From Oscillospiraceae bacterium (lineage in GTDB: Bacteria > Bacillota > Clostridia > UBA1212 > UBA1255), in assembly GCA_015069165.1 (NCBI GenBank), contig SVJD01000008.1, forward strand, positions 1 to 62,355: a stretch of 62,355 bases of DNA. The letters are read 5' to 3'. The position numbers and the translations under genes are program-made. Below, one piece after another: positions 29,360-43,510 of this stretch (positions within the stretch are counted from its first letter, which is position 1; every line of letters begins with the position of its first letter). The notes under the pieces are model-generated. The model was not told the origin of the DNA and did no database searches. It saw nothing but the letters and a program-made list of their open reading frames with translations.

Positions 29360-29388
29360 GTGCGGTTTTTTATATCCGCACTTTTTTT
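29360..29388 (+). terminator. Rho-independent terminator of the rsmD-coaD operon
   Basis: GTGCGG-TTTTTTATAT-CCGCAC followed by TTTTTTT. Confidence 0.75.
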
Positions 29389-29761
29389 ATGCCAATCCAA
29401 ATGCCGTTCTTAATTTCTCAATAGCGCGTTTTTCCAATCTGGAAATATACGAACGGGAACAATTGAGAAGTTTACCGACTTCACGCTGTGTCAATTCTTT
29501 TTTCTCTTTTTCGCTTTCCCCCAAGCCGTATCTTAAACAAAGTATTTCTTTTTCTCTCTTGGTAAGCACTCCGGACATTACTGTGTGCAACTTTGCAGCT
29601 TGAAAATGCGCATCAATATCTTCAAGCATTTTAGAATCATCATCACAGAGTAAATCCATAATAACAATTTCATTACCCTCTCTATCCGTTCCTATAGGAT
29701 CATTTAACGAAACTTCTCCGCTGTACTTTTTCCCGGAGCGTATGTACATAAGTATTTCATT
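29387..29761 (-). pseudogene. sigK: 3' half of the interrupted sporulation sigma factor SigK (exon-like fragment, restored by excision)
   Basis: NEILMYIRSGKKYSGEVSLNDPIGTDREGNEI...LTKREKEILCLRYGLG...LTQREVGKLLNCSRSYISRLEKRAIEKLR; Sigma region 3/4. The upstream part of track ORF 29387..29848 is non-homologous. Confidence 0.93.
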
Positions 29762-31565
29762 TGCTATCCTCGCCCCAATGGGTTTTAGTCTCAGGACCAA
29801 AATCCGATAAGGAATCTTCGTCCATATCCTCCCCGATAAAGGGCACAAGCTCCTCGTCGTCCTCGGTTTCGGCGATGGAATCCTTCATCAGATGGGAAAT
29901 GTCGGGGTATTCAATGTCCTCGCCCTCTGCGCCGAAGAGAACGATGTGAGCATTCTCACCGTCCCAGATGATGCGGCGCACCACAGTACGAATGGCAACC
30001 CGCTTTTGCTCGTAGCTCATTTCATCAATGCCGTTTTTGAACATGGTCAGCATTTCGCGCATCACATCAAACTCAATATCGCTGAATGCGTGTTCGGATG
30101 CAATGCTGACCAACTCTTCGATACCCATGCTGAGCTTGTCGATCTCCAAATTCATTTCGCCCATGCGGTTAATGATATACCGCTTGGCAGCACCGTCTTC
30201 GGTATCAGCCAAAGTGTCTACCAAAGAGCTGACCTTTCTCTCAAGGTCGGCTTTTTCTTTGCGCATACCGGCAAGGCGGCGTTCGTACTCCTCCCGATTG
30301 CCGGAGTAGAACATCTTGCCCTTTTCTATCTGTCGGACGAAATCGCTCTTTTCGTCCCCAAGACGTTTCAACTGCTCGATGATCGCCGTGTCCAAAGTGT
30401 TACCGTTGGCGTTGCGGCGCTTGCAAAGTTCCTTCTTACTCCGTTCCTTCATCTTGCAAACGTAGGTGTAGATAGGTTCGCCGTCGGCAGTCTTCCGCTT
30501 GGACAGACGGGGGTACATCCGATTGCCGCAGGCACAGAATACAAGGCCGGTGAGCAGCGCCTCATTCTTGCGGGGACGGCGGTAGGATTTACTCTTGTTT
30601 CGCTCCAAATTGTCCTGTACCGCTACCCATACCTTGCCGGGGATGATGCCGGGGTGTTTGCCCACCGACACGATCCATTCGTTTACAGGATTGAACACAG
30701 TGGCTTTGCCCTTCTCCTGATCGGTGCGGTTGTAGGCGAGAATGCCACGCACGCCGTCAAACTCTTCCCGGGACGAAAACACCTCGGATTCCTTCAGACG
30801 AAAATACTCAAAAGCATCCTCGTCGGCGATCATATAGACGGGATTTTGCAGGATGGCCTTGATGGCAAAGCGGGTGAACTGGTTCTCGTTTTTGGTCAGC
30901 AGCCTGCGCTTTAACAGCTCCGCTTCGGTCATAGTCAGTGAGCCGGTCTGGGTGAACAGGTCGAAAATCGTCTTGACGATCTCCGCCTCTTCGGGAATCA
31001 ACTTCAGCTTGCAGGCTTTCTTGGTCTTGCCGTCCATAGTGATGCTCTTGACGCTTTCGCTCTTGTAGCCCGTGGGGGTGTTGCCGCCCAACCAACGACC
31101 CGTCTTGGCAAGCTCGTGCATGTTGTCCCGAATTCGCTCGGCGATAGTCTCCCGCTCCAGCTGGGAGAATACCGATGCGATCATCATCATAGCGCGTCCC
31201 ATAGACGTGCCCGTATCGAACTGTTCGCGAATGGATACAAAAACAACGCCTTTGCGCTCCAGTTTCTTCATCATTATCGAAAAGTCGCCCACGTTACGGC
31301 TTGCACGGTCCAGGCGGTACACAACCATCATTTTGATCTCGTTCTTTTCGATCTGATCCATCATCCGCTGGAAAGCAGGGCGGTTGATATTGCCGCCGGA
31401 AAAGCCCTCGTCCTCAAATACAATGGCTTTCTCCGCTTCTGCGTCACCGTAGTGCAGACGAATATACTCCCGGCACAGATCCACCTGATTGCCGATACTC
31501 TCGCCCTTTCCTGTAAACTTCGATTTTCGTGAATAGATTGCAATAACACCGTTTTCATTTTTCAT
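29757..31565 (-). CDS. Large serine site-specific recombinase (SpoIVCA-like), 602 aa
   Basis: IAIYSRKSKFTGKGESIGNQVDLCREYI, YRLDRASRN, SQLERETIAERIRDNM, recombinase zinc-ribbon CACGNRMYPR; ATG 31565 with GGAGGAAT upstream. Confidence 0.93.
   Translation of the reverse strand: MKNENGVIAIYSRKSKFTGKGESIGNQVDLCREYIRLHYGDAEAEKAIVFEDEGFSGGNINRPAFQRMMDQIEKNEIKMMVVYRLDRASRNVGDFSIMMKKLERKGVVFVSIREQFDTGTSMGRAMMMIASVFSQLERETIAERIRDNMHELAKTGRWLGGNTPTGYKSESVKSITMDGKTKKACKLKLIPEEAEIVKTIFDLFTQTGSLTMTEAELLKRRLLTKNENQFTRFAIKAILQNPVYMIADEDAFEYFRLKESEVFSSREEFDGVRGILAYNRTDQEKGKATVFNPVNEWIVSVGKHPGIIPGKVWVAVQDNLERNKSKSYRRPRKNEALLTGLVFCACGNRMYPRLSKRKTADGEPIYTYVCKMKERSKKELCKRRNANGNTLDTAIIEQLKRLGDEKSDFVRQIEKGKMFYSGNREEYERRLAGMRKEKADLERKVSSLVDTLADTEDGAAKRYIINRMGEMNLEIDKLSMGIEELVSIASEHAFSDIEFDVMREMLTMFKNGIDEMSYEQKRVAIRTVVRRIIWDGENAHIVLFGAEGEDIEYPDISHLMKDSIAETEDDEELVPFIGEDMDEDSLSDFGPETKTHWGEDSK
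29758..29761. other. Recombination core at the 3'-sigK junction (CATT plus / AATG minus)
   Basis: GATAGCA-AATG-AAATAC on minus; shared with 42424-42427. Confidence 0.75.
29769..29786. repeat. Subterminal inverted repeat arm (CTCGC-N4-ATGGGTTTT)
   Basis: Reverse complement of AAAACCCAT-N2-GCGAG at 42401-42416; GCGAG/CTCGC sits exactly 7 bp from the core on each side. Confidence 0.75.
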
Positions 31566-31686
31566 GACGAAAATTCCTCCTTCATTTGTGTTATGTATAT
31601 GTAGGTGTATACCATAAAGTAACACCCCATACAATAGATCAATTTTCGTCCGCAAGATTTTCTGTGAACTTTTTGTAAACAATCGC

Positions 31687-31740
31687 AAAAAAGCCCCCAA
31701 TGCCGTTTGATTCCCATCTGGAATCGTCAGCATCGGGGGC
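31687..31740 (-). terminator. Rho-independent terminator with nested stem
   Basis: Minus: GCCCCCGATGC...GATTCC-AGATG-GGAATC...GCATTGGGGGC-TTTTTT. Confidence 0.75.
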
Positions 31741-31746
31741 ATAATG

Positions 31747-32667
31747 TTATTTCTTGCCCTTATTAAGTTTGTCGGAAATCTCCACTAATTTCATGAACCC
31801 ATCTGGATTCTGCATTAATCCACTGATTAACTGCATTTGCAACGCTGTGTCAGGAGACACCTGCGGTTGAGTGGGCTGCATACTCTTGATTACCGTTCCG
31901 ATAGTCTCAGTAGAGAAGTTTTTGACTTCATTTTTCAGTTCACCCATTGTATCAAGAATTTGATACAACAAAGGCATAATTGCGGAATGTGCATTTTCGG
32001 GCAAAACATCTTCTTGGGTTTCTTCGTTTGTTGGTTCATTGTACTGGAAGGACTCAATAGTTTTCTTTAATCTGTCCTTGATTTCTTCAACACTATCCAA
32101 ATCGGTTAGGTCATATTCAAATGTGCGAATAGCAGTAATATCAAACGGCAGATTCTCGCCTTTCCTTCTTAAATGAATCATCGGTTTTTTGGTTCTTGCT
32201 CTGTACCCCATTTCATAGAACACATTAGGGTTATGTCCGGTAATATCGGCAATTACCAAATCAGCATTATCCAATGCTTCTATGATAGACTGCGTAATTG
32301 AATTGGCATCGTTTCGCTTGTCTATGCGTTCAGCTTCAAAGCCACACATTTCACATACAGGTGCGATTATGTATTTCAGTAACTTATCTGAATTGGTGCG
32401 TACCTCCGTACCTTCCTCACCGATAGGGCAAACAACAAAACACTTTCTCATATCCTCACTCCTTTTTCCTATTGCATATACCCCTCTATCCAGTTTTTTA
32501 ATAGAACCGTTTCTCAGTAACGTATTAATGGATCCGGCAAATTGACCTTCGGTATAATCATCAACACCACTTTGTGCCAAAAACGCCTTGATCTCCTGTA
32601 CGCTATGATTCTCTTTATCCGAAAGAAAACCAACGATCATTTCTTGTAATTTTGCGCTTGTAATCAT
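31747..32667 (-). CDS. Winged-helix N-terminus plus TIR/nucleoside 2-deoxyribosyltransferase-like domain protein
   Basis: RKCFVVCPIGEEGTEVRTNSDKLLKYIIAPVCEMCGFEAERID...ADLVIADITGHNPNVFYEMGYRAR. Confidence 0.7.
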   Translation of the reverse strand: MITSAKLQEMIVGFLSDKENHSVQEIKAFLAQSGVDDYTEGQFAGSINTLLRNGSIKKLDRGVYAIGKRSEDMRKCFVVCPIGEEGTEVRTNSDKLLKYIIAPVCEMCGFEAERIDKRNDANSITQSIIEALDNADLVIADITGHNPNVFYEMGYRARTKKPMIHLRRKGENLPFDITAIRTFEYDLTDLDSVEEIKDRLKKTIESFQYNEPTNEETQEDVLPENAHSAIMPLLYQILDTMGELKNEVKNFSTETIGTVIKSMQPTQPQVSPDTALQMQLISGLMQNPDGFMKLVEISDKLNKGKK

Positions 32668-32723
32668 TTTTTCGACCTCCTTTTCCTAAATATTACCACA
32701 CAAAAATCATTTTATCAATAGTA

Positions 32724-32765
32724 AAAGCACAAGAAATGCAAGATTTTCTTGCTTTCTTGTGCTTT
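32724..32765. terminator. Long near-perfect hairpin (putative terminator)
   Basis: AAAGCACAAGAAA-T-GCAAGA-TTT-TCTTGC-TTTCTTGTGCTTT. Confidence 0.6.
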
Positions 32766-32849
32766 ATAGCTATTTGTGTCGGTTCTGTTTTTAGATTTCA
32801 ATCATTGAGCACCGGTTGCGAAGTGCCAATTATTTCAGAAATTGTTCTG

Positions 32850-32954
32850 TTAGGACCACGACCGTACATACACATTATCGGCATAGCCGATCTTTACATA
32901 TTGAGGGAATGACAGGTTTGTAAGAATATATATTACGCCTTTGTTTGCGTCCAT
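32850..32954 (-). pseudogene. Truncated GIY-YIG nuclease-like remnant, 34 aa
   Basis: Minus ATG 32954 with GAGGAG RBS: MDANKGVIYILTNLSFPQYVKIGYADNVYVRSWS*, N-terminal GIY-YIG pattern that then stops. Confidence 0.6.
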
Positions 32955-32955
32955 A

Positions 32956-33593
32956 TTAAGGCTCCTCACTTTTGCTTATTCTTTCTATGTCTGTTAATGC
33001 TTCTTCAAGCATCATATCACGATCCTCCACAGGAAGGCTCGCTATGTATTTATCCCAATCCAAAATAGAGTAATTAAAAAATGTGAACTTCTCTTTGTTC
33101 TTATTATAATAGGACTCTGCCGCCAAACACAGTATCAAACAAAGTCTCCTAACACTGACACTATATTCCCGATGCTCTATGCCATTATTATCAATGGTTA
33201 AGGTTCCTGCTTCTCCGCGTATATTTTATAAGGCTTCTCAGTCTCAACAACAATTTCGAAGTGTTCAATAGGACACTCTTTTTTATTGCGCTTTTTATAT
33301 TCGCCATTATCCAGGTTAGGATTTCCTTGATGGAAAAGCGAGCTTCTGAAATTATATACTATTTCGCCACTCAAATAAGGCATGTCCGGAACCCCGTCAA
33401 TAGGTGGAGATTTTTCATATTGTCCGATATACTCGTCATACCAAAGTTTGTAGCGGCTTGTAGAGCCTTTTTCTGGATACTCTGCTTTTCCACATATATC
33501 AGGGAGAGTAAGTGCCAATGATAATGCAGCAAAATATAAGTTATTAGATAAAGCTTCGTTGATTTCTGTAATAAGCTTTTTTATCATAAGCAC
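32956..33593 (-). pseudogene. Frameshifted HEPN-like protein gene (131-aa ORF 33198..33593 plus continuation in another frame to 32956)
   Basis: First part ends KPYKIYAEKQEP*; a second frame continues GTLTIDNNGIEHREYSVSVRRLCLILCLAAESYYNKNKEKFTFFNYSILDWDKY with no intervening start/RBS; RSSLFH fits Rx4H. Confidence 0.5.
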
Positions 33594-33614
33594 ACACCTC
33601 CTTGCTATTTAGGT

Positions 33615-34442
33615 CTATTTTATAGATTCAGATAAAACTGGAATAAGAATGCTTGCTGCCGCGATGCCTTGTTCAACAAGCCATTTCATCACTTCTTTTG
33701 CTTTGCCCCAGCGTTTTCCCTCACTCTCTTTACTCTTGGCTATTTCTTCTAATTCTAACAACTTATCGAACAGTTCCTGTGTCTGTGCATCGGATAACCC
33801 TGCATCTTCAATTTGCTGTCGTGCATTATCAAACACTGCTTCTATGGTTATATTAGTCTCGTTCTTAGTTTCAATGTTTATCTGTGGCTGAAAATTAATT
33901 TCTTGCTTATTTTGAACAGAAGGAGCGTTATTCTCGGCAGATTGTTTTGGGGCACTTAGGAATGTTGCATATGCTTTAAGCTTGGTTATAATGCCATCAA
34001 TCATTTCCTCTGATACTTGATACATACTAAAATTTAATACTTCTTGAGGTGCAGTAGCAATAGCCTCGGTCATTTTATCAAAGGTGATTTTATCCGAATA
34101 TGAGTAGAAGACTTTAGAGACATACTTCTCTCGCAATTCTTCGTTGCTTTTTGCTTGCATACCTTCTTCAATTAGATTCAAGATGTCAATTACAGCAAAG
34201 GCATTTATATCCTGTGCAAGTAATGCCTCAAGGAAACTTCGAATAGATATTTTGTCAGTTTTCTCATACACTTGAGAATATGTATCTGTTGTATTCCAAG
34301 TCGTTATTTTCAACCTTGTTGTAAACTCATCTCCGTAAAATGCTGATACTTCGGAAGCAAGCTCTTGCATCTCTCTTAACCCATTTGCAGAATCAATTTT
34401 TGATAATAAACTTCTTGTTTTTTCAATTTGTTTGAATGTCAT
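33615..34442 (-). CDS. Hypothetical protein, 275 aa
   Basis: Intact ORF in the restriction operon; C-terminal KSKESEGKRWGKAKEVMKWLVEQGIAAASILIPVL with hydrophobic end. Confidence 0.6.
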   Translation of the reverse strand: MTFKQIEKTRSLLSKIDSANGLREMQELASEVSAFYGDEFTTRLKITTWNTTDTYSQVYEKTDKISIRSFLEALLAQDINAFAVIDILNLIEEGMQAKSNEELREKYVSKVFYSYSDKITFDKMTEAIATAPQEVLNFSMYQVSEEMIDGIITKLKAYATFLSAPKQSAENNAPSVQNKQEINFQPQINIETKNETNITIEAVFDNARQQIEDAGLSDAQTQELFDKLLELEEIAKSKESEGKRWGKAKEVMKWLVEQGIAAASILIPVLSESIK

Positions 34443-34457
34443 AACGGTAACCTCACT

Positions 34458-34808
34458 TTAATTGCTTGTGGCTATCAGCGTTTCAATAAACTTGATTTCT
34501 TCTTTAGGCAAACGCTGAACGTAATTTTTAACTGTTTTTGTTATTATCTTAGCGCCTTGCATTTGCAAAAAGTTCTCGGCGTTGATGTAGGATTGCTCAA
34601 CAGTTGTCGGTTGAGAAGCGTTTGCCGTGTTCCACATAATAGTTTCAACAAGATACTTATTCATCAGCTTGCGAATATGATCCTGCATTTGAGAATATTG
34701 CTGTGTAGCGTAATAATGTCGGAGGAGGATTACATCGTCGATGTAATCCATAACCTCTTTGACATCTTTGAATTTTTCGTATATTTTTAAGTAATCTGTC
34801 ATTTTCAC
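34458..34808 (-). CDS. Hypothetical protein, 116 aa, translationally coupled to the helicase-methyltransferase
   Basis: ATGA overlap with the upstream stop (34805-34808). Confidence 0.6.
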   Translation of the reverse strand: MKMTDYLKIYEKFKDVKEVMDYIDDVILLRHYYATQQYSQMQDHIRKLMNKYLVETIMWNTANASQPTTVEQSYINAENFLQMQGAKIITKTVKNYVQRLPKEEIKFIETLIATSN

Positions 34809-37800
34809 TCCATCGGCTTAATCATAGATTCGATAAATGCGATTTCTTCCTCGGTCAGTCCATACTTAGCGTACAGATCTTCGTCAGTCCATGCTCTTGA
34901 AAAGTCTTGCGTAGGAACAAAACGATATGTTTTGGATGTTCCGTGCTGGCTGATTTTTGCCATACTTAACAAGAAACGAGCAAATCGTGTGCGCAAATAG
35001 TTCGAAAGATTTGTTGCAGACGCCTCATCAAGATCCATGTCCATTCCGGCAATCAAGAAGGTTTCCGTACAGATAGACTTCGGTGCAACTACGAAGGTGT
35101 TTTGGTTATCATCGTTTAATTCCGTACCGATATTGTTTGCATAAGGCATAAATACCTTCCATTTGTCAATCCATTCGGTGTGGGAGGGGATGTTCGAGCG
35201 TTCAACGTATCCTACTGTTTTAGCTTTTCCATAGCATTTTACAGGATCGGTCATGCCTGTTACTTCTTTTTTGAAGTCTGCAGTTTTAATAAAGTTACCA
35301 TCCAAGCCGAACGGTCTACGAGGGGAAATGTGATGTTCCATCGTATCAACAGTTTCATCAACGATCACTTTATTCAAAATGCTTATTGCTTCACTATTTC
35401 TGATAAAAATGTCGAGATCTTTATATCTTAATTTTCTTGTGGAAGTTTTAACAACACCATTGCCTTCATGAGAAACAATTCGAACATCGGAATCTGTTTT
35501 TTCGTGCTTATGATCCCAAAGCAGATAACAAACACCACCGCGGTTATTTGTATCTGGGAACACCTCTTCGGGATGCAAGAAGTCATGTAGCTCCGCGATA
35601 CTTGTATCGTTGAGCATGTCATTTCTGAACTCGTCTAATCCCTTGCCGCCTGCATACCAACGGGTAGGCATAATCAAGGACATAAACGAAGGCTCAACCT
35701 TCTTTGAGATATCCACAAAGTTATGATAAATCGGACGAGCACTTGCCTGTGCACCTCCATCGCTAACTTGGTAAGGAGGATTACCTAATACTACATCAAA
35801 ATTCACTATCTCATCTCCTTCTCTAATTTCATCGTTCATTGTAATGTTGTCAAACGGTTTGTTCTGTCGTAACAATGCCGCTATCTTTGGATAGTCAATA
35901 TCTCCGTCCTCGTCCTTAACCTCCAAAAGGCTATAAGAGGTAAACTTGGAAGCGATATTATCCACATTCAATCCCAAAATCTCGTATATCATACGGGTAA
36001 ACTCATAGGTGATACCTGATGTGGGGATGGTGTAAATCGCATCCTTCAATGCTTCCTTATCATAGCCCAAAGCAATATACTTTTCAAACACGGCAAGGGC
36101 GAACTCGCCTGCCTTACCTGCAATATCAAGCACCTTGCTTCCGCTATCCATTACGGCTCTCAAATCGGCATCTTCAATCATATCGATCATATCCTTGCAG
36201 ATATGCTTCGGTGTGATAACCTCGGATTCTCCGAGCTTTCCGAATTTCTGCACGGATACGGATGCGCGTGTGATAGGCTCAACGCTGTCGTCGTGCGAAA
36301 GCTGATTGAGGTTGTGGATTTTATAATCCAAACGGCTGAGAACAAACTTATCGGCATTCTCCAACATTCCTTGAAGCACAACCTTGCTGATGCCAAGATT
36401 TCTTGCAATACGCGCGTTATTCGGTTCATCGATGCAGTCAATAATATCGCTCAAAGATATAACCGTATTTTTAGTGAGGAAAGCAAAGAACAGAATTCTC
36501 GCATAGTAAGACCTGAACTGCTTTACGGCATCCTTGGTCTTTTCTTCTGCCTGTGTTGTGTCGGCAGGCTCATCGGTCGGTGAATCCGTTCCTGTAGCCG
36601 TGTCTGTTCCACCTGTGGTATCGGTCGATTCATTATCATCGGGGGTATCCATGTCATCGCCATCACCATCTGCGCCTTTGATGGTAAGACCTGCTTTTGA
36701 GCCAAGCTCGTTTTCTCGCTCAATGGCTGCACGAATAGCGGCAATATCAAGCAAGGATATATCTACGGGGATTTCAACGGTTTCTTCCGCTACGCCACGC
36801 GATTTGGAGTACTCGCTAACAGCCTTCAGTATATCCGTTGCCGTGATCTGAACGATCTTGTCCTTGTTCATCACGATAACGGGAGAGATACGCAGTTCTT
36901 CCTCAATACGCTCACGGAGCTTGCTGTTTCCGGCTTCGTCGGTATTGACATTATAGACCTGCGCCTTTTGCTCTTGCATGACGAAAACACGGTCAGGATC
37001 AAAGTCAACGAGAATGGTTTGAGGCTTCATGTTGTATCTGATCGTTTTACCGTCATCGCCCACATACTCTCTTATGTATTGGTTCTGCAAACGGAATACT
37101 GCCTGATCGTATTCCTGCGGAGAGGAAGTATCTTTGAGGAACAGCATAGTATCCCATTCAGGAACAGTACTACCCGTCAGCATGCGGTTAACCGTCAAGG
37201 TGATGGTTTTCTTGCCCTGTGCTTCACAGGCACTGATAGCTCTCTTGATGTCGCTCGGTTTCTTGTATCTGTTGGGGTTATCCACGCCGGAGATGTTGAT
37301 AATCTCGTAGTCGTTCAAATTCTTGAATTTATCGGTGTTACCTCTGATCAACGCTTCCAGCGCATCGCAAGAAGCACAGTACGGCAGAACAACAACGATA
37401 TGACGACACATTTTGCCGTCCTTGATTTTTTCGTAATCGAGGAATCCGAGCAGTTCTTCATCTTCCTTGCTACCGTCAATAACTTCAAGCAATTCAAGGA
37501 TTTCCTGTCCGTGAACGAACAGTTTGTGACTTCCGTCATCAACTCTGCCAATAGATTTAGGCTTGAAGAGCGCGGAGAAAGCATCCGACATACCGCTTTC
37601 ACGCAAAGCGGCCATACGCTTGCGTGCGGACTCATTCGGATTGAACGCAAATCTTATCATCTGAGGGAAGCCGAAATAAGGATTCTCCCATTCGTCCTTC
37701 GGCTCGTCCTTTGAGAAGTTATCTCTATCCCATTCCTCTTGCTCACAAACGATGTCGGTGAACTGATAGAAGGCAATCAAGTCTTGCTCTCTGTCAAATT

Positions 37801-38848
37801 CATCGCTCATCAAGATACGGTAAGGCGTACCCGAAAGGTGAACGGTTACATTAACATCGAACTCCTTGGTGCTTTCCAAGACATCCTCAACGGCATACTT
37901 TTCTTCCTTGGACAGCTTTTCTCCTTGGCTTGCGCGAAGCACAGCACCGTATTTCTCGGCTCTTGCGCCGAAGTGCGTTTCGTCGACAAGAAGAAGGTCT
38001 ATTTTGCGGCCGAAAATTTGAGTGTGCTTGTCCTTAATATTCTCGCCCTGAAGATCCTGCAAAGTCAAGAATACAACGACATTTTTCGGATCGGTGGGAT
38101 GGTCAAGCGTATCCGTGATAATGCTATAATTGTTCTCCAAGTCGGCAGAAGAGAAAAATTCATAATCGTTTCTAAAGTTCTCGGCACTCTCTACCGTCTT
38201 ACGCCACTCATCGCGCACGTCGGCTTTTGCAGACACAACGACAACGAGTTTTGCTCCCATTTCCTTCGCACAACACATAGAGGTGAAGGATTTGCCGAAA
38301 CGCATAACTGCGTACATAAGCAGATGCGTTCTTCCGTTTGCTACGGCTCTCTTAAACGCATCTATGGTTGCTTGTTGATTCGGGCGAGGAAACCACATTC
38401 CAGTGGAAGCGTATTTTTCGGTAGTTGGCAATTGCGTAGTCGCATCATAGTAATGATATTTGCCTGCCTTCTCCCTATAATCTTCGTTTATGTCCTCTAT
38501 TGCTTCTCTTACGTCATCAACGGTGGCTGCTTTGAAAAACTCCTTAGAATAGTAAATTCCCGCAGGAAGCTCTTCGGATTGAAGACGTGTTCTGTCCCTA
38601 TCGGTCTCCAAGAATTGGTGCACGGCAAAATCACGAAAATACACATCGTCTGTAATTTTTGCACTGCCTTCAAACTTCTTTTCGAGGTTTGGAAAATGAT
38701 CTCGCCATTCGTTAAGCCGTTTGGATACCGGACGATAAGTATCTCCAACCTTTAAACAATTCGGAATAGTGTTTGTGGTAAAAGCATATATATGAGGTTC
38801 TACACGACCTGTTATCAAGCTGTCAAGTATACTTAAATCTTTCATCAT
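34805..38848 (-). CDS. Single-chain restriction-type protein: N-terminal GIY-YIG/T5orf172-like region, SF2 helicase, C-terminal N6-adenine methyltransferase (Eco57I-type)
   Basis: HIYAFTTNTIPNCLKVGDTYRPVSKRLNEW; MRFGKSFTSM with LLLVDETHFG helicase motifs; NPPYQVSDGG methyltransferase motif IV. Confidence 0.8.
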   Translation of the reverse strand: MMKDLSILDSLITGRVEPHIYAFTTNTIPNCLKVGDTYRPVSKRLNEWRDHFPNLEKKFEGSAKITDDVYFRDFAVHQFLETDRDRTRLQSEELPAGIYYSKEFFKAATVDDVREAIEDINEDYREKAGKYHYYDATTQLPTTEKYASTGMWFPRPNQQATIDAFKRAVANGRTHLLMYAVMRFGKSFTSMCCAKEMGAKLVVVVSAKADVRDEWRKTVESAENFRNDYEFFSSADLENNYSIITDTLDHPTDPKNVVVFLTLQDLQGENIKDKHTQIFGRKIDLLLVDETHFGARAEKYGAVLRASQGEKLSKEEKYAVEDVLESTKEFDVNVTVHLSGTPYRILMSDEFDREQDLIAFYQFTDIVCEQEEWDRDNFSKDEPKDEWENPYFGFPQMIRFAFNPNESARKRMAALRESGMSDAFSALFKPKSIGRVDDGSHKLFVHGQEILELLEVIDGSKEDEELLGFLDYEKIKDGKMCRHIVVVLPYCASCDALEALIRGNTDKFKNLNDYEIINISGVDNPNRYKKPSDIKRAISACEAQGKKTITLTVNRMLTGSTVPEWDTMLFLKDTSSPQEYDQAVFRLQNQYIREYVGDDGKTIRYNMKPQTILVDFDPDRVFVMQEQKAQVYNVNTDEAGNSKLRERIEEELRISPVIVMNKDKIVQITATDILKAVSEYSKSRGVAEETVEIPVDISLLDIAAIRAAIERENELGSKAGLTIKGADGDGDDMDTPDDNESTDTTGGTDTATGTDSPTDEPADTTQAEEKTKDAVKQFRSYYARILFFAFLTKNTVISLSDIIDCIDEPNNARIARNLGISKVVLQGMLENADKFVLSRLDYKIHNLNQLSHDDSVEPITRASVSVQKFGKLGESEVITPKHICKDMIDMIEDADLRAVMDSGSKVLDIAGKAGEFALAVFEKYIALGYDKEALKDAIYTIPTSGITYEFTRMIYEILGLNVDNIASKFTSYSLLEVKDEDGDIDYPKIAALLRQNKPFDNITMNDEIREGDEIVNFDVVLGNPPYQVSDGGAQASARPIYHNFVDISKKVEPSFMSLIMPTRWYAGGKGLDEFRNDMLNDTSIAELHDFLHPEEVFPDTNNRGGVCYLLWDHKHEKTDSDVRIVSHEGNGVVKTSTRKLRYKDLDIFIRNSEAISILNKVIVDETVDTMEHHISPRRPFGLDGNFIKTADFKKEVTGMTDPVKCYGKAKTVGYVERSNIPSHTEWIDKWKVFMPYANNIGTELNDDNQNTFVVAPKSICTETFLIAGMDMDLDEASATNLSNYLRTRFARFLLSMAKISQHGTSKTYRFVPTQDFSRAWTDEDLYAKYGLTEEEIAFIESMIKPME

Positions 38849-38858
38849 AATGCTCCAA

Positions 38859-39836
38859 TCAATCTTTTTTTAGCAAGGACACGAATGTGACCTTTTTGTT
38901 GGCCTTCCAATCCTTTATGATACAGTAAATACCGGTGTGAGCGTAGGGATCGTTCTTGGCACATCCGGGACAAGGCTGCTTTTCGGTATTCATATCAAAT
39001 AGCGTAAGCTGACCTTCTTCTACCTCTTCACAACTTTCGGGAATGACGAATTTCAATCCGTCCATCTGCCATATATTCCACGAAAGGATTTCAGCAATCT
39101 TCTTGAGAGTATCGATATCGGGTTCTTTATCAAACTTGGCTTTATAGTAATCGATAAAGGTAAAGAGCAGATTCTCGCGTGCCAAAAGCACATTGTCGCC
39201 TTGCCAATCGTAGCCATAGATATTCTGAAAGGACTTGATTGCCCATTTCAGCCATTCTTTTTCTGTTTGTGTATTCTCACTCACGACACGAAGCTTTCTA
39301 TCCAGCAATCCGATACGCTGTGAAAGCTCTATCATGTATCCACTGACGGTATCATAACGGCTGACAAGGTACGGTGCTTCGCCGCAGGTGATCTCCAAGC
39401 GAACATCGTTGATATAGTCTTGCCATGTCTTACCCGTTGAAGAGGGGAATAAAATCGGCTCAGTAGTTGCTATCCAAGTCTTATCAGTTTCTTCGTTAAA
39501 GACAAAATCCGTTCCGAACCATGCATTATCGACAAGATTATTCTGTTTGTTGCAAATCCAAGAAGGGGTAAACACCTCCGCTTTGTCGCGAATACGGTCT
39601 GTTTGTTCCTTTTTGGATTTTTCGGTTCTCGGTTTTATAATATTGCCGTGGTAACCTGTAATTGCTTCGACGGTTATGTGGTCATAGCTTTGGTATCCAA
39701 ATCCGCGCGAACTATAGTTATCGGTTGCCCAGATAATATTCTTGCCTGACGACCTGTCTCGCAAAAGGACGCTCAGGAGCTCATTATCTAAACGATAAAT
39801 ATAGTTTTCTTTTATGTCGATCTTGTTCTTTTCCAT
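38859..39836 (-). CDS. Restriction-system partner protein, 325 aa
   Basis: AEVFTPSWICNKQNNLVDNAWFG...LEITCGEAPYLVSRYDTVSG...IGLLDRKLRVVSEN, directly upstream of and co-oriented with the helicase-methyltransferase. Confidence 0.7.
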   Translation of the reverse strand: MEKNKIDIKENYIYRLDNELLSVLLRDRSSGKNIIWATDNYSSRGFGYQSYDHITVEAITGYHGNIIKPRTEKSKKEQTDRIRDKAEVFTPSWICNKQNNLVDNAWFGTDFVFNEETDKTWIATTEPILFPSSTGKTWQDYINDVRLEITCGEAPYLVSRYDTVSGYMIELSQRIGLLDRKLRVVSENTQTEKEWLKWAIKSFQNIYGYDWQGDNVLLARENLLFTFIDYYKAKFDKEPDIDTLKKIAEILSWNIWQMDGLKFVIPESCEEVEEGQLTLFDMNTEKQPCPGCAKNDPYAHTGIYCIIKDWKANKKVTFVSLLKKD

Positions 39837-39918
39837 ATTTACTCACTTCTAGTTGCTTATATTTTGCTTCACTTGTTGACCAAAAAATAGGATCCAAAAA
39901 GATGTTTTGTTTCAAAGT

Positions 39919-39958
39919 ATCAATTTGACACTTTGGAATCCCATAATTGACACTTTGG
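39919..39958. promoter_or_regulatory. Operator-like repeats upstream of the restriction operon
   Basis: TTGACACTTTGG at 39925 and 39947 (22-bp period) plus an inverted near-copy TTCAAAGTATCAA just before the first. Confidence 0.5.
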
Positions 39959-39962
39959 GATT

Positions 39963-40385
39963 TTATGCCTCGTTCCTCTGGCGGTATATTTCCTTCAAAT
40001 CCTCAATAGCCACTTCGGGGGCGAGGGAGTGGAAGATAAACCAATTGCGGTTCATGGTTTCAGCGGGGGCTTGCTTGTAGATCTCCTTGCTGTCCTCGCC
40101 GGTGGTAAAGTGCCAGAAACGGTACAGATAACCGCTCCAATAGAGAGCCTCTCTATCGAACACATTACCGGTCTTGGTCAGTTCAACCGTCTCTGCAAGC
40201 TCAGCAAGGAGGTATTCTTCTCCCGCCCACTGCATACGGTTAAACTTGGAATCCAGTCCCTTAGCGACCTCAGAGGTCATAAACGCCTTGATAAAGGTGG
40301 CGCTGTCGTAACCCTTCTTGCCGGACAGTTCAAACAGTCTGCCCTGAATATCACACAGTTTAAATTCCAGTTCATTCATACTCAT
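39963..40385 (-). CDS. Small protein paired with the XRE-DUF3990 protein (putative TA partner)
   Basis: Start overlaps the stop of the upstream ORF; co-directional. Confidence 0.55.
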   Translation of the reverse strand: MSMNELEFKLCDIQGRLFELSGKKGYDSATFIKAFMTSEVAKGLDSKFNRMQWAGEEYLLAELAETVELTKTGNVFDREALYWSGYLYRFWHFTTGEDSKEIYKQAPAETMNRNWFIFHSLAPEVAIEDLKEIYRQRNEA

Positions 40386-41245
40386 TTCGCCTCATCCAAA
40401 ATTTCATCAAAGAAGTTTCCTTCACGGCGGTAATTCTTGCAAATATCATTGGCAAGTGCGATGCCCTTTTGACGGTTAGCGTCGCTCTCGTCCTGCAGGA
40501 AGCGGCGTTCCATCATAGACAGAGGAATTTCCCGCTCGATGCGAACAGCGGCGCAGGCCTTCTCTGTGGTCGCCACATACTGCTTGCCCAGTTTCAGAGC
40601 AGACAGACTGTTCACCAGCGCCATATCCGTAATATTCCCCATAAAGAAGTTATCCAGCACGTAGAACATTCTGTCGTTGGCGATGCTGCCGATCACGAGA
40701 TCCTTGCCAGCATCGATACGGCTGTACTTCTCGTAGAAGGATGTTCCCTTGATCTTATCCATTCTGCCTCTGTGGAAAGCAACCAGCATTGCCCAATCCA
40801 GGTCGGCTTTGATCTCTACGGTGTCGAGGGCATTTGTGTCGATGGACACGATGTAAAACTTGGACTTTTCAAAATCGCAGATCAGCGTCAGCGGCTGTCC
40901 CGGCTCGGTGCCCATATAGAAGCCCTTACCGAAGTCGCACATTTCACGGCTCTTGGGCGCAATATCTCCCACGATGCCGGACTTGGAGCCGTGGTACAGC
41001 AGAATCCGTCCGTCCTCTAATTTGACAGATGCGGCTTCGTTTGCGATTTTATCCAGTACGAATTGATAGACCGGAACGCCCTGCTCCTTGCAATAGTCGT
41101 ACAGCTTCGCCTGGGCAAGCTTGGTGGGGATGGCTCTGCCATTTTCCCAGCGATTCACCGTGGCGAAGTTCACGCCAAGCTTTTCGGCAAAGTCTGCCTG
41201 GCTCAACCCCAGATAGTCTCGTATATGTTTGGTCAGCTTTTGCAT
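40382..41245 (-). CDS. XRE HTH fused to DUF3990 (ADP-ribosyltransferase-like) domain
   Basis: HIRDYLGLSQADFAEKLGVNFATVNRWENGRAIPT then LYHGSKSGIVGDIAPKSREMCDFGKGFYMGTEPGQP. Confidence 0.78.
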   Translation of the reverse strand: MQKLTKHIRDYLGLSQADFAEKLGVNFATVNRWENGRAIPTKLAQAKLYDYCKEQGVPVYQFVLDKIANEAASVKLEDGRILLYHGSKSGIVGDIAPKSREMCDFGKGFYMGTEPGQPLTLICDFEKSKFYIVSIDTNALDTVEIKADLDWAMLVAFHRGRMDKIKGTSFYEKYSRIDAGKDLVIGSIANDRMFYVLDNFFMGNITDMALVNSLSALKLGKQYVATTEKACAAVRIEREIPLSMMERRFLQDESDANRQKGIALANDICKNYRREGNFFDEILDEAK

Positions 41246-41284
41246 AATAAGCCTCCTTGTGATATAACAAGTATTATTATTTGT

Positions 41285-41313
41285 ATTATAGCCAATGTTA
41301 TATGCTCCGTCAA
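41285..41313 (-). promoter_or_regulatory. SigA promoter of the XRE-DUF3990 operon
   Basis: Minus TTGACG (41313-41308), 17-bp spacer, TATAAT (41290-41285). Confidence 0.7.
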
Positions 41314-41356
41314 TGGGTTTTGCGTAAAAGTTTCAAATTGTTCAAGAATTTCGGAG

Positions 41357-41400
41357 TTTGGGATATCCCAAAACGGGCAAAGTCGGAATATCCCGACTTT
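41357..41400. repeat. Two adjacent palindromes upstream of the XRE-DUF3990 promoter
   Basis: TTTGGGATATCCCAAA (41357-41372, perfect) and AAAGTCGG-AATATC-CCGACTTT (41379-41400). Confidence 0.65.
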
Positions 41401-41566
41401 GGTATGAAGGGACCGTTTTACAGACGAGAAGGAAGTTTTCAAAATGAACTCCAAGGATATGTAGAAAGGTTGCAGAAATGCATACTCAAAGATTGTGGCA
41501 GGCAGGATTTAGGTATAGCGGACAACCATCCCCGCATATGGTAGGTACAAAGGGGAGGTACTCGGT

Positions 41567-41788
41567 ATGAAGACATTTGCACCGATTAACATAGTTGTCC
41601 ACTATCCCAAAACGGAAGAAGGGTGGCGGGAACTGAGACGCCGTATGGCGATCATTCACGCAGATGCGGTACTTAACAGCATATCCAAACTAAACTGTCC
41701 TGCGTCACAAAAGGAAAGACTGCTGCAGGCGATCATCGACGATACGAAAGCACAGATCAAAGCCGAAAACGCAGCAAAATCAAACTAA
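41567..41788 (+). CDS. Small conserved-looking protein, 73 aa (candidate recombination directionality factor or accessory protein)
   Basis: ATG with GGGGAGG RBS; followed directly by a terminator; the only clear plus-strand gene in the element. Confidence 0.65.
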   Translation: MKTFAPINIVVHYPKTEEGWRELRRRMAIIHADAVLNSISKLNCPASQKERLLQAIIDDTKAQIKAENAAKSN

Positions 41789-41789
41789 G

Positions 41790-41818
41790 GTAAAGCCGCT
41801 CCACCCGGAGCGGCTTTA
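41790..41818. terminator. Bidirectional hairpin terminator
   Basis: AAAGCCGCTCC-ACCC-GGAGCGGCTTT. Confidence 0.75.
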
Positions 41819-41822
41819 CTGT

Positions 41823-42401
41823 TTATGTAGAGATTCTGTCTTTGAAATATTTCTCCCAAGACTTCAAACTGACCACCTTTCTGCCGCTTTCCCAATCCTG
41901 CAGGCATCGGATAGGGATGCCCATCTGTCGGGCAAAGGGCTTCTGTCCCAAGCCGTAGGCCGCCCTATATTCTTGAATCTGTCGGACTTGTCCATCACAC
42001 AGAAAGCGGTTATATCCGTCCAATAAATCATATACGGGAATTTCAAAGATCGTTGCCAGCTTGTACGCAGTGGTCTTGTTAAAAGAATTGAGATTGCCGG
42101 TTTCCAAATTGATATATGTATTGCGGGAGATCCCCACCATCCGTGCCACCTCCTTCTGCATCAGCCCAAGACGGTGACGGCAGAAGCGCAGACGGTCAGG
42201 GATATTGTCGATGTCCTCGTAGCTCCCGTACTGCTTGTTGAAAAGCTGAGCCTCCAAAAGCTTGCGCGGCGCCATCAGACGAAACGTATGTATGTAAAGG
42301 AGGGCGTGTCGAAGCTTACCGTCCTCCCGGCAGGTCATAATGTACACGCCATCACCCAAAGGGTGCAAGATATGCCACTTACACCTAACCTTTTGGTTCA
42401 A
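41823..42401 (-). CDS. HTH (XRE-like) protein at the element end; start uncertain (TTG 42401 or ATG 42338/42275)
   Basis: IPDRLRFCRHRLGLMQKEVARMVGISRNTYINLETGNLNSFNKTTAYKLATIFEIPVYDLL, plus a second HTH-like C-terminal region. Confidence 0.7.
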   Translation of the reverse strand: MNQKVRCKWHILHPLGDGVYIMTCREDGKLRHALLYIHTFRLMAPRKLLEAQLFNKQYGSYEDIDNIPDRLRFCRHRLGLMQKEVARMVGISRNTYINLETGNLNSFNKTTAYKLATIFEIPVYDLLDGYNRFLCDGQVRQIQEYRAAYGLGQKPFARQMGIPIRCLQDWESGRKVVSLKSWEKYFKDRIST

Positions 42402-42416
42402 AAACCCATCCGCGAG
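42401..42416. repeat. Subterminal inverted repeat arm AAAACCCAT-N2-GCGAG
   Basis: Partner of 29769-29786. Confidence 0.75.
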
Positions 42417-42423
42417 AGGGTTG

Positions 42424-42427
42424 CATT
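42424..42427. other. Recombination core at the 5'-sigK junction (CATT plus / AATG minus)
   Basis: ATAGAC-AATG-CAACCC on minus; in frame with 29758-29761. Confidence 0.75.
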
Positions 42428-42718
42428 GTCTATGCATCTAACTGCATAAGTTCCTATTTTATTGCCTTTTTCTGCCTTGAAAGTGGACACTGCCTTTATG
42501 AGGCCAATCGTTCCGACGGAAATCAATTCTTCCATGGGCAGTACCGGCGATACGTACTTTTTGGCAACGTGCGCAACAAGGCGCAAATTGTGTTCTATAA
42601 GTATATTTCTTGATTGTTCGCGTTCTTTTTCTGTGCCGTTAAAGTATTTATCTATGCAATTTGCTTCTTCTTCGTCACTTAAAGGTTTAGGGAAAAGATT
42701 GTTGCCCGAATAATTCAT
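42424..42718 (-). pseudogene. sigK: 5' half of interrupted sigK (exon-like fragment; unexcised frame ends at 42398)
   Basis: MNYSGNNLFPKPLSDEEEANCIDKYFNG...RNILIEHNLRLVAHVAKKYVSP...EELISVGTIGLIKAVSTFKAEKGNKIGTYAVRCID; ATG 42718 after GGGTGAG. Confidence 0.93.
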
Positions 42719-42881
42719 GTGCTCACCCACAAAACATTCTCTATAGGCAATATATGAATAACTCAGACTTGTTTGTGTCTGTCAGAATGTAAAAACAATC
42801 GCAAAAGAGTATAAAATATAGTTAAAAATTAGGTTGTATTTATCCTAATTCCGGGATATAATAATAACAGAGGTGATAAAA

Positions 42882-43133
42882 ATGATGGTTAACACTAATT
42901 ATTTAGTTCCCATGACTGAGGCCAATCAAAATTTTTCAAGAGTCGTTCGAATCGTTGATGAAAGCGGTTTGGCTGTTATTTTGAAAAATAATAAACCAAA
43001 ATATGTTGTTGTTGATTTTGATGAGTATGATAATATCGCGTCTGCCATGCAAATGCGTAAAGCAATAATTGACGGTATTGCAGACAATATCATCGATGAA
43101 AATATGGAAGCCTTTTTGGAGTTGGCTAAATAA
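42882..43133 (+). CDS. Phd/YefM-type antitoxin
   Basis: VPMTEANQNFSRVVRIVDESGLAVILKNNKPKYVVVDFDEYD. Confidence 0.85.
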   Translation: MMVNTNYLVPMTEANQNFSRVVRIVDESGLAVILKNNKPKYVVVDFDEYDNIASAMQMRKAIIDGIADNIIDENMEAFLELAK

Positions 43134-43510
43134 TGATACTTTTAACTGTAGAAGAAATAACCGCACTCCACAACAAACTGATTGACCGTACAGGTGGCAC
43201 TCATGGACTTCGCGACCAAAGTTTATTAGAGTCTGCGATTTATAGTGCTATATCCGGTTTTGATGGTAGCGAAGCATATCCAACCATTGAGGAAAAAGCA
43301 GCTCGTCTTATGTACTCACTTACTAATAATCACGCTTTTGTAGATGGAAATAAGCGCATTGGTGTATTTACAATGTTGATGACTTTACAACTCAACAACG
43401 TAAAAATTAATTACACACAAGCCGAACTAATTTCTCTTGGACTTTCGCTTGCAGAGGGAAAAACCGGATATATCGAAATTCTTGATTGGATAACAAAACA
43501 CAAAATTTAA
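43133..43510 (+). CDS. Doc/Fic-type death-on-curing toxin
   Basis: Fic motif HAFVDGNKRIG; LRDQSLLESAIYSA; overlaps the antitoxin stop. Confidence 0.9.
   Translation: MILLTVEEITALHNKLIDRTGGTHGLRDQSLLESAIYSAISGFDGSEAYPTIEEKAARLMYSLTNNHAFVDGNKRIGVFTMLMTLQLNNVKINYTQAELISLGLSLAEGKTGYIEILDWITKHKI

Follow-up and report, generated by a model that had tools for sequence, protein, structure and literature searches.

A sigK intervening element with a compact candidate defence island in an uncultured Clostridia bacterium

Intervening elements in the sporulation gene sigK (skin elements) have mostly been regarded as remnants of prophages or as timing devices. Prophage insertions in sigK have been described for C. 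tetani and others (PMC5553647), and skin(Cd) of C. difficile encodes a 72-aa directionality factor, CD1234, which is under the control of sigma-E and SpoIIID (PMC5025042). Restriction-modification (R-M) genes have been found in such elements as well. In B. cereus biovar anthracis an R-M system is located in a sigK insert (Island IV, 22 kb), for which a protective role was suggested by the authors (PMC10745906), and the gin element in gerE of B. cereus ATCC 10987 contains R-M genes and the small directionality factor GirX (PMC5595907). Here, a 62,355-nt stretch (contig SVJD01000008.1, in the following called the window), which is one contig of a 1.94-Mb metagenome-assembled genome (MAG), was analysed. 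It harbours a 12.67-kb skin element (positions 29758-42427) in sigK of an uncultured Clostridia bacterium, and this element is probably composed of a two-gene excision core and exchangeable cargo, the latter being in this case a compact defence island.

The element is flanked by two halves of sigK matching TIGR02846, which confirms the skin setting proposed in the original prediction made from this DNA sequence, and both halves score higher with sigK family models than with sigE. Joining them in silico at the AATG core restores the sigK frame exactly, with RCIDN before and EILMYIR after the join, and the junction sequence expected upon excision is RCIDNEILMYIR. The cores are accompanied by a 25-nt inverted pair, and the stop codon of the recombinase gene is located at the core on the sigK 3′ side. 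Since the short AATG core and the inverted arms occur at both ends, the ends have the common core of a skin element; together with the split sigK with its restored frame and the internal large serine recombinase, these sequence features identify positions 29758-42427 as a sigK intervening element. The cargo lies within 31747-41245, as had been predicted, but the element is larger and includes the recombinase gene, a 73-aa gene and a helix-turn-helix (HTH) gene. A separate and intact SigE/SigK-type gene is present on contig C21 of the MAG. Directly upstream of sigK and outside the element, a Phd/Doc toxin-antitoxin pair (TIGR01552, TIGR01550) was observed at positions 42873-43510. Rfam and tRNA scans of the window yielded no match.

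For comparison, five genomes at the genus level and 391 genomes at the class level were used. In the congener G002 sigK (77% identity) is uninterrupted and has GAATGAAATG at the site. In G003 a recombinase that is 96% identical in part is followed by the contig end. In G004 sigK is split as in the window by an element with different cargo, the two ends of which lie on two contigs with the middle unread. As judged from gene content, the window and G004 show that cargo has been exchanged at the same sigK site between congeners. A chimeric assembly was considered and judged unlikely, because the gene order flanking sigK (coaD side and rluD side) is the same in G003 and G004. In G001, two contigs (C37 and C38; L018:1-200 and L019:1-200) stop exactly at an AAATG core of sigK, which would fit a sample containing the integrated as well as the excised form. 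Contig C24, sought via the HTH gene as the other end of this element, was rejected as an unrelated chromosomal region, and the supported statement for G001 is limited to contigs stopping exactly at the attachment core. Across the class, recombinase orthologues adjoin sigK halves in elements of about 1.6-35 kb. AATG is present at both ends in 13 of the 16 elements compared, mostly with inverted arms, and a variant core was found in the other three (G106, G153 and G178).

The recombinase of the window is open over its whole length and retains all three of its domains, and the 73-aa gene is likewise intact. A profile search detected the 73-aa family in 18 of the 391 genomes at 19 places. Seventeen of these places are in genomes that have a sigK element, almost all of them inside it, while the remaining two are on contigs that also encode related recombinases. 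In G083, G049 and G314, which have the smallest elements, this gene is the only one seen besides the recombinase, and minimal skin elements of 1.6-2.1 kb contain these two genes and little else. Upstream regions were searched for promoters of sigma-E type with the B. subtilis consensus, namely a -35 box containing ATA, a spacing of 13-15 and a -10 box containing CATA. The pattern was found upstream of seven of nine genes in a first set and four of eight in a second set located by profile, against a chance expectation of 0.03-0.05 per region in the same sequence. Six homologues of the first set have a stronger match than the window at a similar place, and in several of the promoters the spacer contains ACAA(G), a motif that may resemble a SpoIIID site. 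Because of the link to sigK-element recombinases, the sigma-E-like promoters and the parallel to C. difficile CD1234, the 73-aa protein is predicted to be the recombination directionality factor (RDF), i.e. the excision partner of the recombinase. It had no match in phage records. Weak homologues were also noticed at G265:C1:419538-419684 and G214:C1:278612-278722, outside a sigK element but on contigs encoding related serine recombinases, and these are possibly RDFs of other elements. Homologues of the HTH regulator occur at the same element end in G004, G106, G318, G251, G153 and G329, and by this distribution the regulator belongs to a backbone common to many skin elements.

The cargo is dominated by R-M genes and candidate defence genes, in agreement with the compact defence island that had been proposed, and all named open reading frames (ORFs) of 325, 1347, 116, 275, 131, 306 and 287 aa were recovered at their predicted positions. 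The restriction-type operon was substantiated by profile searches, in which the large enzyme matched PADLOC REase_MTase_IIG with 1516 bits (residues 4-1346) and its 325-aa partner matched MTase_II with 431 bits, both over full length. The enzyme starts with a T5orf172 (GIY-YIG) domain (28.9 bits against a cut-off of 20), followed by ResIII helicase and Eco57I-type methyltransferase domains with NPPY at residues 1023-1026. Compared with complete orthologues from Clostridia of the ruminant gut, it shows identities of 77-79% over residues 1-130, 93-96% over 131-560, 88-90% over 561-760 and 91-94% over 761-1027, but only 21-27% over 1028-1310, before identity returns to 57-86% in the tail. One recognition region is common to two orthologue loci (95%) and unlike the others. 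As low identity within an otherwise conserved chain marks an exchanged specificity domain, residues 1028-1310 approximately are the predicted target recognition region, which appears to be swapped between orthologues. Such apparent swapping is strong evidence for a working R-M enzyme, and on this pattern the enzyme is under visible functional selection. In UBA7217 (L028:10001-12280), an R-M enzyme was observed that ends after the helicase (759 aa) and misses the methyltransferase half, with the 116-aa coding region immediately behind it.

In the 325-aa partner, methyltransferase motif X (EVFTP) is present together with a motif-I-like stretch. An NPPY-type motif IV was not found in any of its examined homologues, including those on plasmids of Bifidobacterium, Enterococcus and Paenisporosarcina (L089, L090 and L091), where the homologue likewise precedes the large enzyme. 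The partner is therefore probably a non-catalytic methyltransferase subunit. Its AlphaFold model (predicted local distance difference test, pLDDT, 41) was too poor for a fold search, and sequence searches of the PDB with the R-M enzyme, this partner and the TIR-like protein gave no match. In five of six related loci holding this end of the cassette (L024-L028), the enzyme is followed by the 116-aa gene, with one extra gene in between in L024 and L025; in the sixth (L029) it is not. The 275-aa and HEPN-like genes are variably present among related cassettes, and the R-M cassette was also found outside skin elements in other Clostridia.

The remaining cargo was only in part as predicted (Table 1). 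The pair annotated as XRE-DUF3990 and ADP-ribosyltransferase-like was recognised by a DUF3990 match (101 bits) and an adjacent 140-aa partner, and this layout corresponds to PDC-M42, which makes it an unvalidated candidate. The DUF3990 protein is presumably ADP-ribosyltransferase-like, as known for its family. The M42B match of the partner is better in L024 (45 bits) than in the window, the pair is also located in front of R-M genes in L024 and L028, and both proteins recur in the G251 skin element from a distant family with 64% and 66% identity. The TIR/NDT-like assignment of the 306-aa protein holds for the PADLOC TIR profile, while the match to Pfam NDT (PF05014) is borderline with 28.7 bits, just under the cut-off of 28.8; relatives of this protein occur in Staphylococcus and Streptococcus prophages. 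The HEPN-like protein has an R-x4-H motif (FRSSLFH) and its gene is intact in L025 and L026 (205-217 aa), but it is frameshifted in the window and its identity as HEPN is unproven: Pfam gave no match, and the AlphaFold model of an intact homologue, although mainly helical, was too poor for a fold search (pLDDT 44). In L026 the HEPN-like gene is followed by a T5orf172/GIY-YIG gene, the counterpart of a remnant situated between the HEPN-like and TIR-like genes of the window. The previously noted lack of phage structural genes was confirmed, as no PHROGs structural family matched any cargo gene.

Table 1. Coordinates of the sigK element, its genes and its ends in the window
Feature	Position	Strand	Remarks
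sigK 3′ part (C-terminal half of SigK)	29387..29761	-	TIGR02846 positions 109-225, 133.3 bits
Element end, sigK 3′ side	29758..29786	.	AATG core 29758-29761, inverted arm 29762-29786
Large serine recombinase, 601 aa from likely start	29757..31562 (ORF open to 31742)	-	Resolvase, Recombinase and Zn_ribbon_recom domains
306-aa protein, AbiEi-like winged-helix N-terminus and TIR/NDT-like domain	31747..32667	-	PADLOC TIR effector, 61.5 bits
31-aa remnant of T5orf172/GIY-YIG gene	32862..32954	-	84% identity over 31 aa
HEPN-like gene, frameshifted near 33216	32956..33593	-	phrog_18591, 85 bits; 131-aa ORF 33198-33593 is the front part
275-aa protein, function unassigned	33615..34442	-	In some cassettes only
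116-aa protein, translationally coupled to R-M enzyme, function unassigned	34458..34808	-	4-nt overlap with 1347-aa gene
1347-aa R-M enzyme	34805..38848	-	T5orf172 (GIY-YIG) nuclease, superfamily 2 (SF2) helicase, N6-adenine methyltransferase
325-aa methyltransferase-like partner	38859..39836	-	PADLOC MTase_II, 431.5 bits, full length
140-aa DUF3990 partner	39963..40385	-	PADLOC PDC-M42B, 33.4 bits (weak); 4-nt overlap with DUF3990 gene
XRE-DUF3990 protein, 287 aa	40382..41245	-	PF13151, 100.9 bits; PADLOC PDC-M13/PDC-M42A
Sigma-E-like promoter of 73-aa gene	41513..41542	+	GTATAGC-15-CATATGGT; score 9/15, weak alone
73-aa protein, predicted RDF	41567..41788	+	Profile family distribution; sigma-E-like promoter in many
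Two-HTH XRE-type regulator adjoining sigK 5′ half	41823..42437	-	HTH_3/HTH_19
Element end, sigK 5′ side	42401..42427	.	AATG core 42424-42427, inverted arm 42401-42425
sigK 5′ part (N-terminal half of SigK)	42424..42730	-	TIGR02846 positions 20-114, 116.9 bits; in-frame join to 3′ part

The cargo classes of sigK elements in relatives were assigned by reading translations by eye, with PADLOC and profile matches for some of them, and the resulting counts are small numbers without a computed enrichment. The comparison supported the original prediction within the genus, where the G004 element carries a distinct and unmistakable defence set consisting of type III R-M methyltransferase and restriction subunits, PARIS/AriAB (545 bits), HerA (551 bits) and SIR2 (192 bits). 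This element also encodes a relaxase, MobC, RepA_N and a DnaC-like protein (L022:6647-10236), and by its gene content it is a mobilisable defence element with sigK as its site. Class-wide, known or candidate defence genes were present in only 4 of the 14 cargo-bearing sigK elements read, although in both of those from this genus; the other two are the G251 element, with the DUF3990 pair and a metallophosphatase-NACHT protein, and the G153 element, with a KAP NTPase matching PDC-S49. Defence cargo as a general rule for sigK elements had to be abandoned: other elements contain prophages (G178 and G059), transporter operons (G264, G225, G162 and G382), an alpha-galactosidase-like enzyme (G265) or replication and unassigned genes (G106, G318 and G329), and seven further ones of only 1.6-3 kb have little besides the recombination core.

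For the timing of excision, the role of the RDF, the enzyme activities and the anti-phage function, we infer the following course. In vegetatively growing cells and along the spore lineage, the element would stay in sigK and the island would be expressed. The 1347-aa enzyme and its 325-aa partner would recognise a short sequence, set by the swappable target recognition region, and an adenine of the host DNA would be methylated, whereas on unmodified incoming DNA the helicase motor would activate the N-terminal GIY-YIG nuclease. The DUF3990 protein with its partner and the TIR-like protein would probably serve as toxins or effectors of a second line. Once the mother cell is sporulating, sigma-E would turn on the 73-aa protein, the recombinase would join the two AATG cores and restore sigK, and the excised island would leave in circular form, in a cell bound to die.

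Several observations weigh against a defence island with a functional excision core. The sigma-E-like site of the window is weak (9/15), and four elements of one genus as well as G178 and G329 are without a matching site. The DUF3990 pair and the TIR-like protein are candidates only as far as defence is concerned, PDCs being unvalidated predicted defence systems (PMC12988326). Moreover, the frameshifted HEPN-like gene and the GIY-YIG remnant suggest that part of the island is decaying, or alternatively an error in the MAG, and most sigK elements of the class are without recognisable defence genes. The weak promoter match would also fit an element that no longer excises, so that sigK is simply broken. 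This is highly improbable in view of the open recombinase with its three domains, the intact cores, arms and 73-aa gene and the exact in-frame join.

A serious alternative, to which we give somewhat less than an even chance, is that the cargo is incidental: sigK would be a mere attachment site with changing cargo, any retention of the insert by the host would be due to sigma-K timing, and defence genes would be present because mobile elements in general carry them. The range of cargo in the class from prophages to transporters to nothing, the broken genes in the island and the relaxase and replication genes of G004 agree with this, as does the intact sigK of G002, which shows the insert to be dispensable; the richness in defence genes of both readable elements of the genus and the functional selection visible on the R-M enzyme do not. 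It is rather unlikely, but worth considering, that the R-M pair, the DUF3990 gene and the TIR-like gene serve the element instead of the cell, as addiction modules that stabilise it in the spore line, so that premature loss in a growing cell would be punished while loss in the mother cell would be costless because that cell dies. Classical addiction cargo includes R-M and XRE-toxin pairs, the cargo genes run in one direction up to the recombinase, and the same cassette occurs on other mobile DNA. On the other hand, the sister element carries SIR2-HerA and PARIS, which are defence systems and are not known to act in maintenance, swapping of the recognition region is expected for the restriction of varied foreign DNA, and nearly core-only elements persist in other genera without such cargo. 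Both alternatives are compatible with each other and with the preferred reading of an excision core carrying an exchangeable defence island, and their ranking is not firm on the present data.

The idea that such an element could offer a stable site for defence genes is plausible. Its extension, that sigK in some spore-forming Clostridia is a standing dock for developmentally excised and in part mobilisable defence-island elements, is put forward tentatively, as possible rather than probable. If true, the germ line would keep its defences while the dying mother cell drops them, and the two-gene core of recombinase and sigma-E-controlled 73-aa RDF would make any cargo compatible with sporulation. 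With two species of one genus carrying different multi-system defence cargo at one sigK site, the notion of a developmental intervening element as a defence island becomes testable. The predicted RDF family, together with the minimal elements of 1.6-2.1 kb, delimits an excision core of two genes that is open to assay in E. coli, in the way chosen for C. difficile. Of further interest is the R-M enzyme for uniting GIY-YIG nuclease, helicase and methyltransferase with visible swapping of specificity, and its partner for resembling a methyltransferase without the catalytic motif.

Compared with known systems, the 1347-aa enzyme resembles the Type ISP enzymes LlaGI and LlaBIII, which likewise unite a nuclease, an SF2 helicase-like ATPase, a methyltransferase and a recognition domain in a single polypeptide (PMC4666363). 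An assignment to type ISP was rejected, as the N-terminal nuclease is not of the Mrr family found in LlaGI/LlaBIII but T5orf172/GIY-YIG, and a separate 325-aa methyltransferase-like partner is present. The full-length matches to PADLOC REase_MTase_IIG (PDLC03626) and MTase_II (PDLC03390) correspond to a pair found on plasmids of several phyla; these profiles are named from sequence databases and not from tested activity, and classical type IIG enzymes do not usually have an ATPase domain. Both genes of PDC-M42 (DUF3990 and M42B) are matched and adjacent as in that unvalidated system, but the partner match is weak (33 bits) and XRE is fused to DUF3990. With skin(Cd) (PMC5025042) the element shares a large serine recombinase next to the sigK 3′ half and a small element-encoded protein, a comparison by size and context and not by sequence. 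It resembles gin (PMC5595907) as a non-phage intervening element with R-M genes in a sporulation gene, whereas gin targets gerE and has three recombinases. R-M genes in a sigK insert and the idea of protection are already published (PMC10745906), so that the element of the window belongs to a known kind. It is like Island IV, which is excised in sporulation, in being a non-phage sigK insert with its own recombinase and R-M cargo. Island IV carries a Type I R-M system in Bacilli, while the element described here combines a GIY-YIG/helicase/methyltransferase enzyme, a DUF3990 pair and a TIR-like protein with a Clostridia-type core that includes the 73-aa gene.

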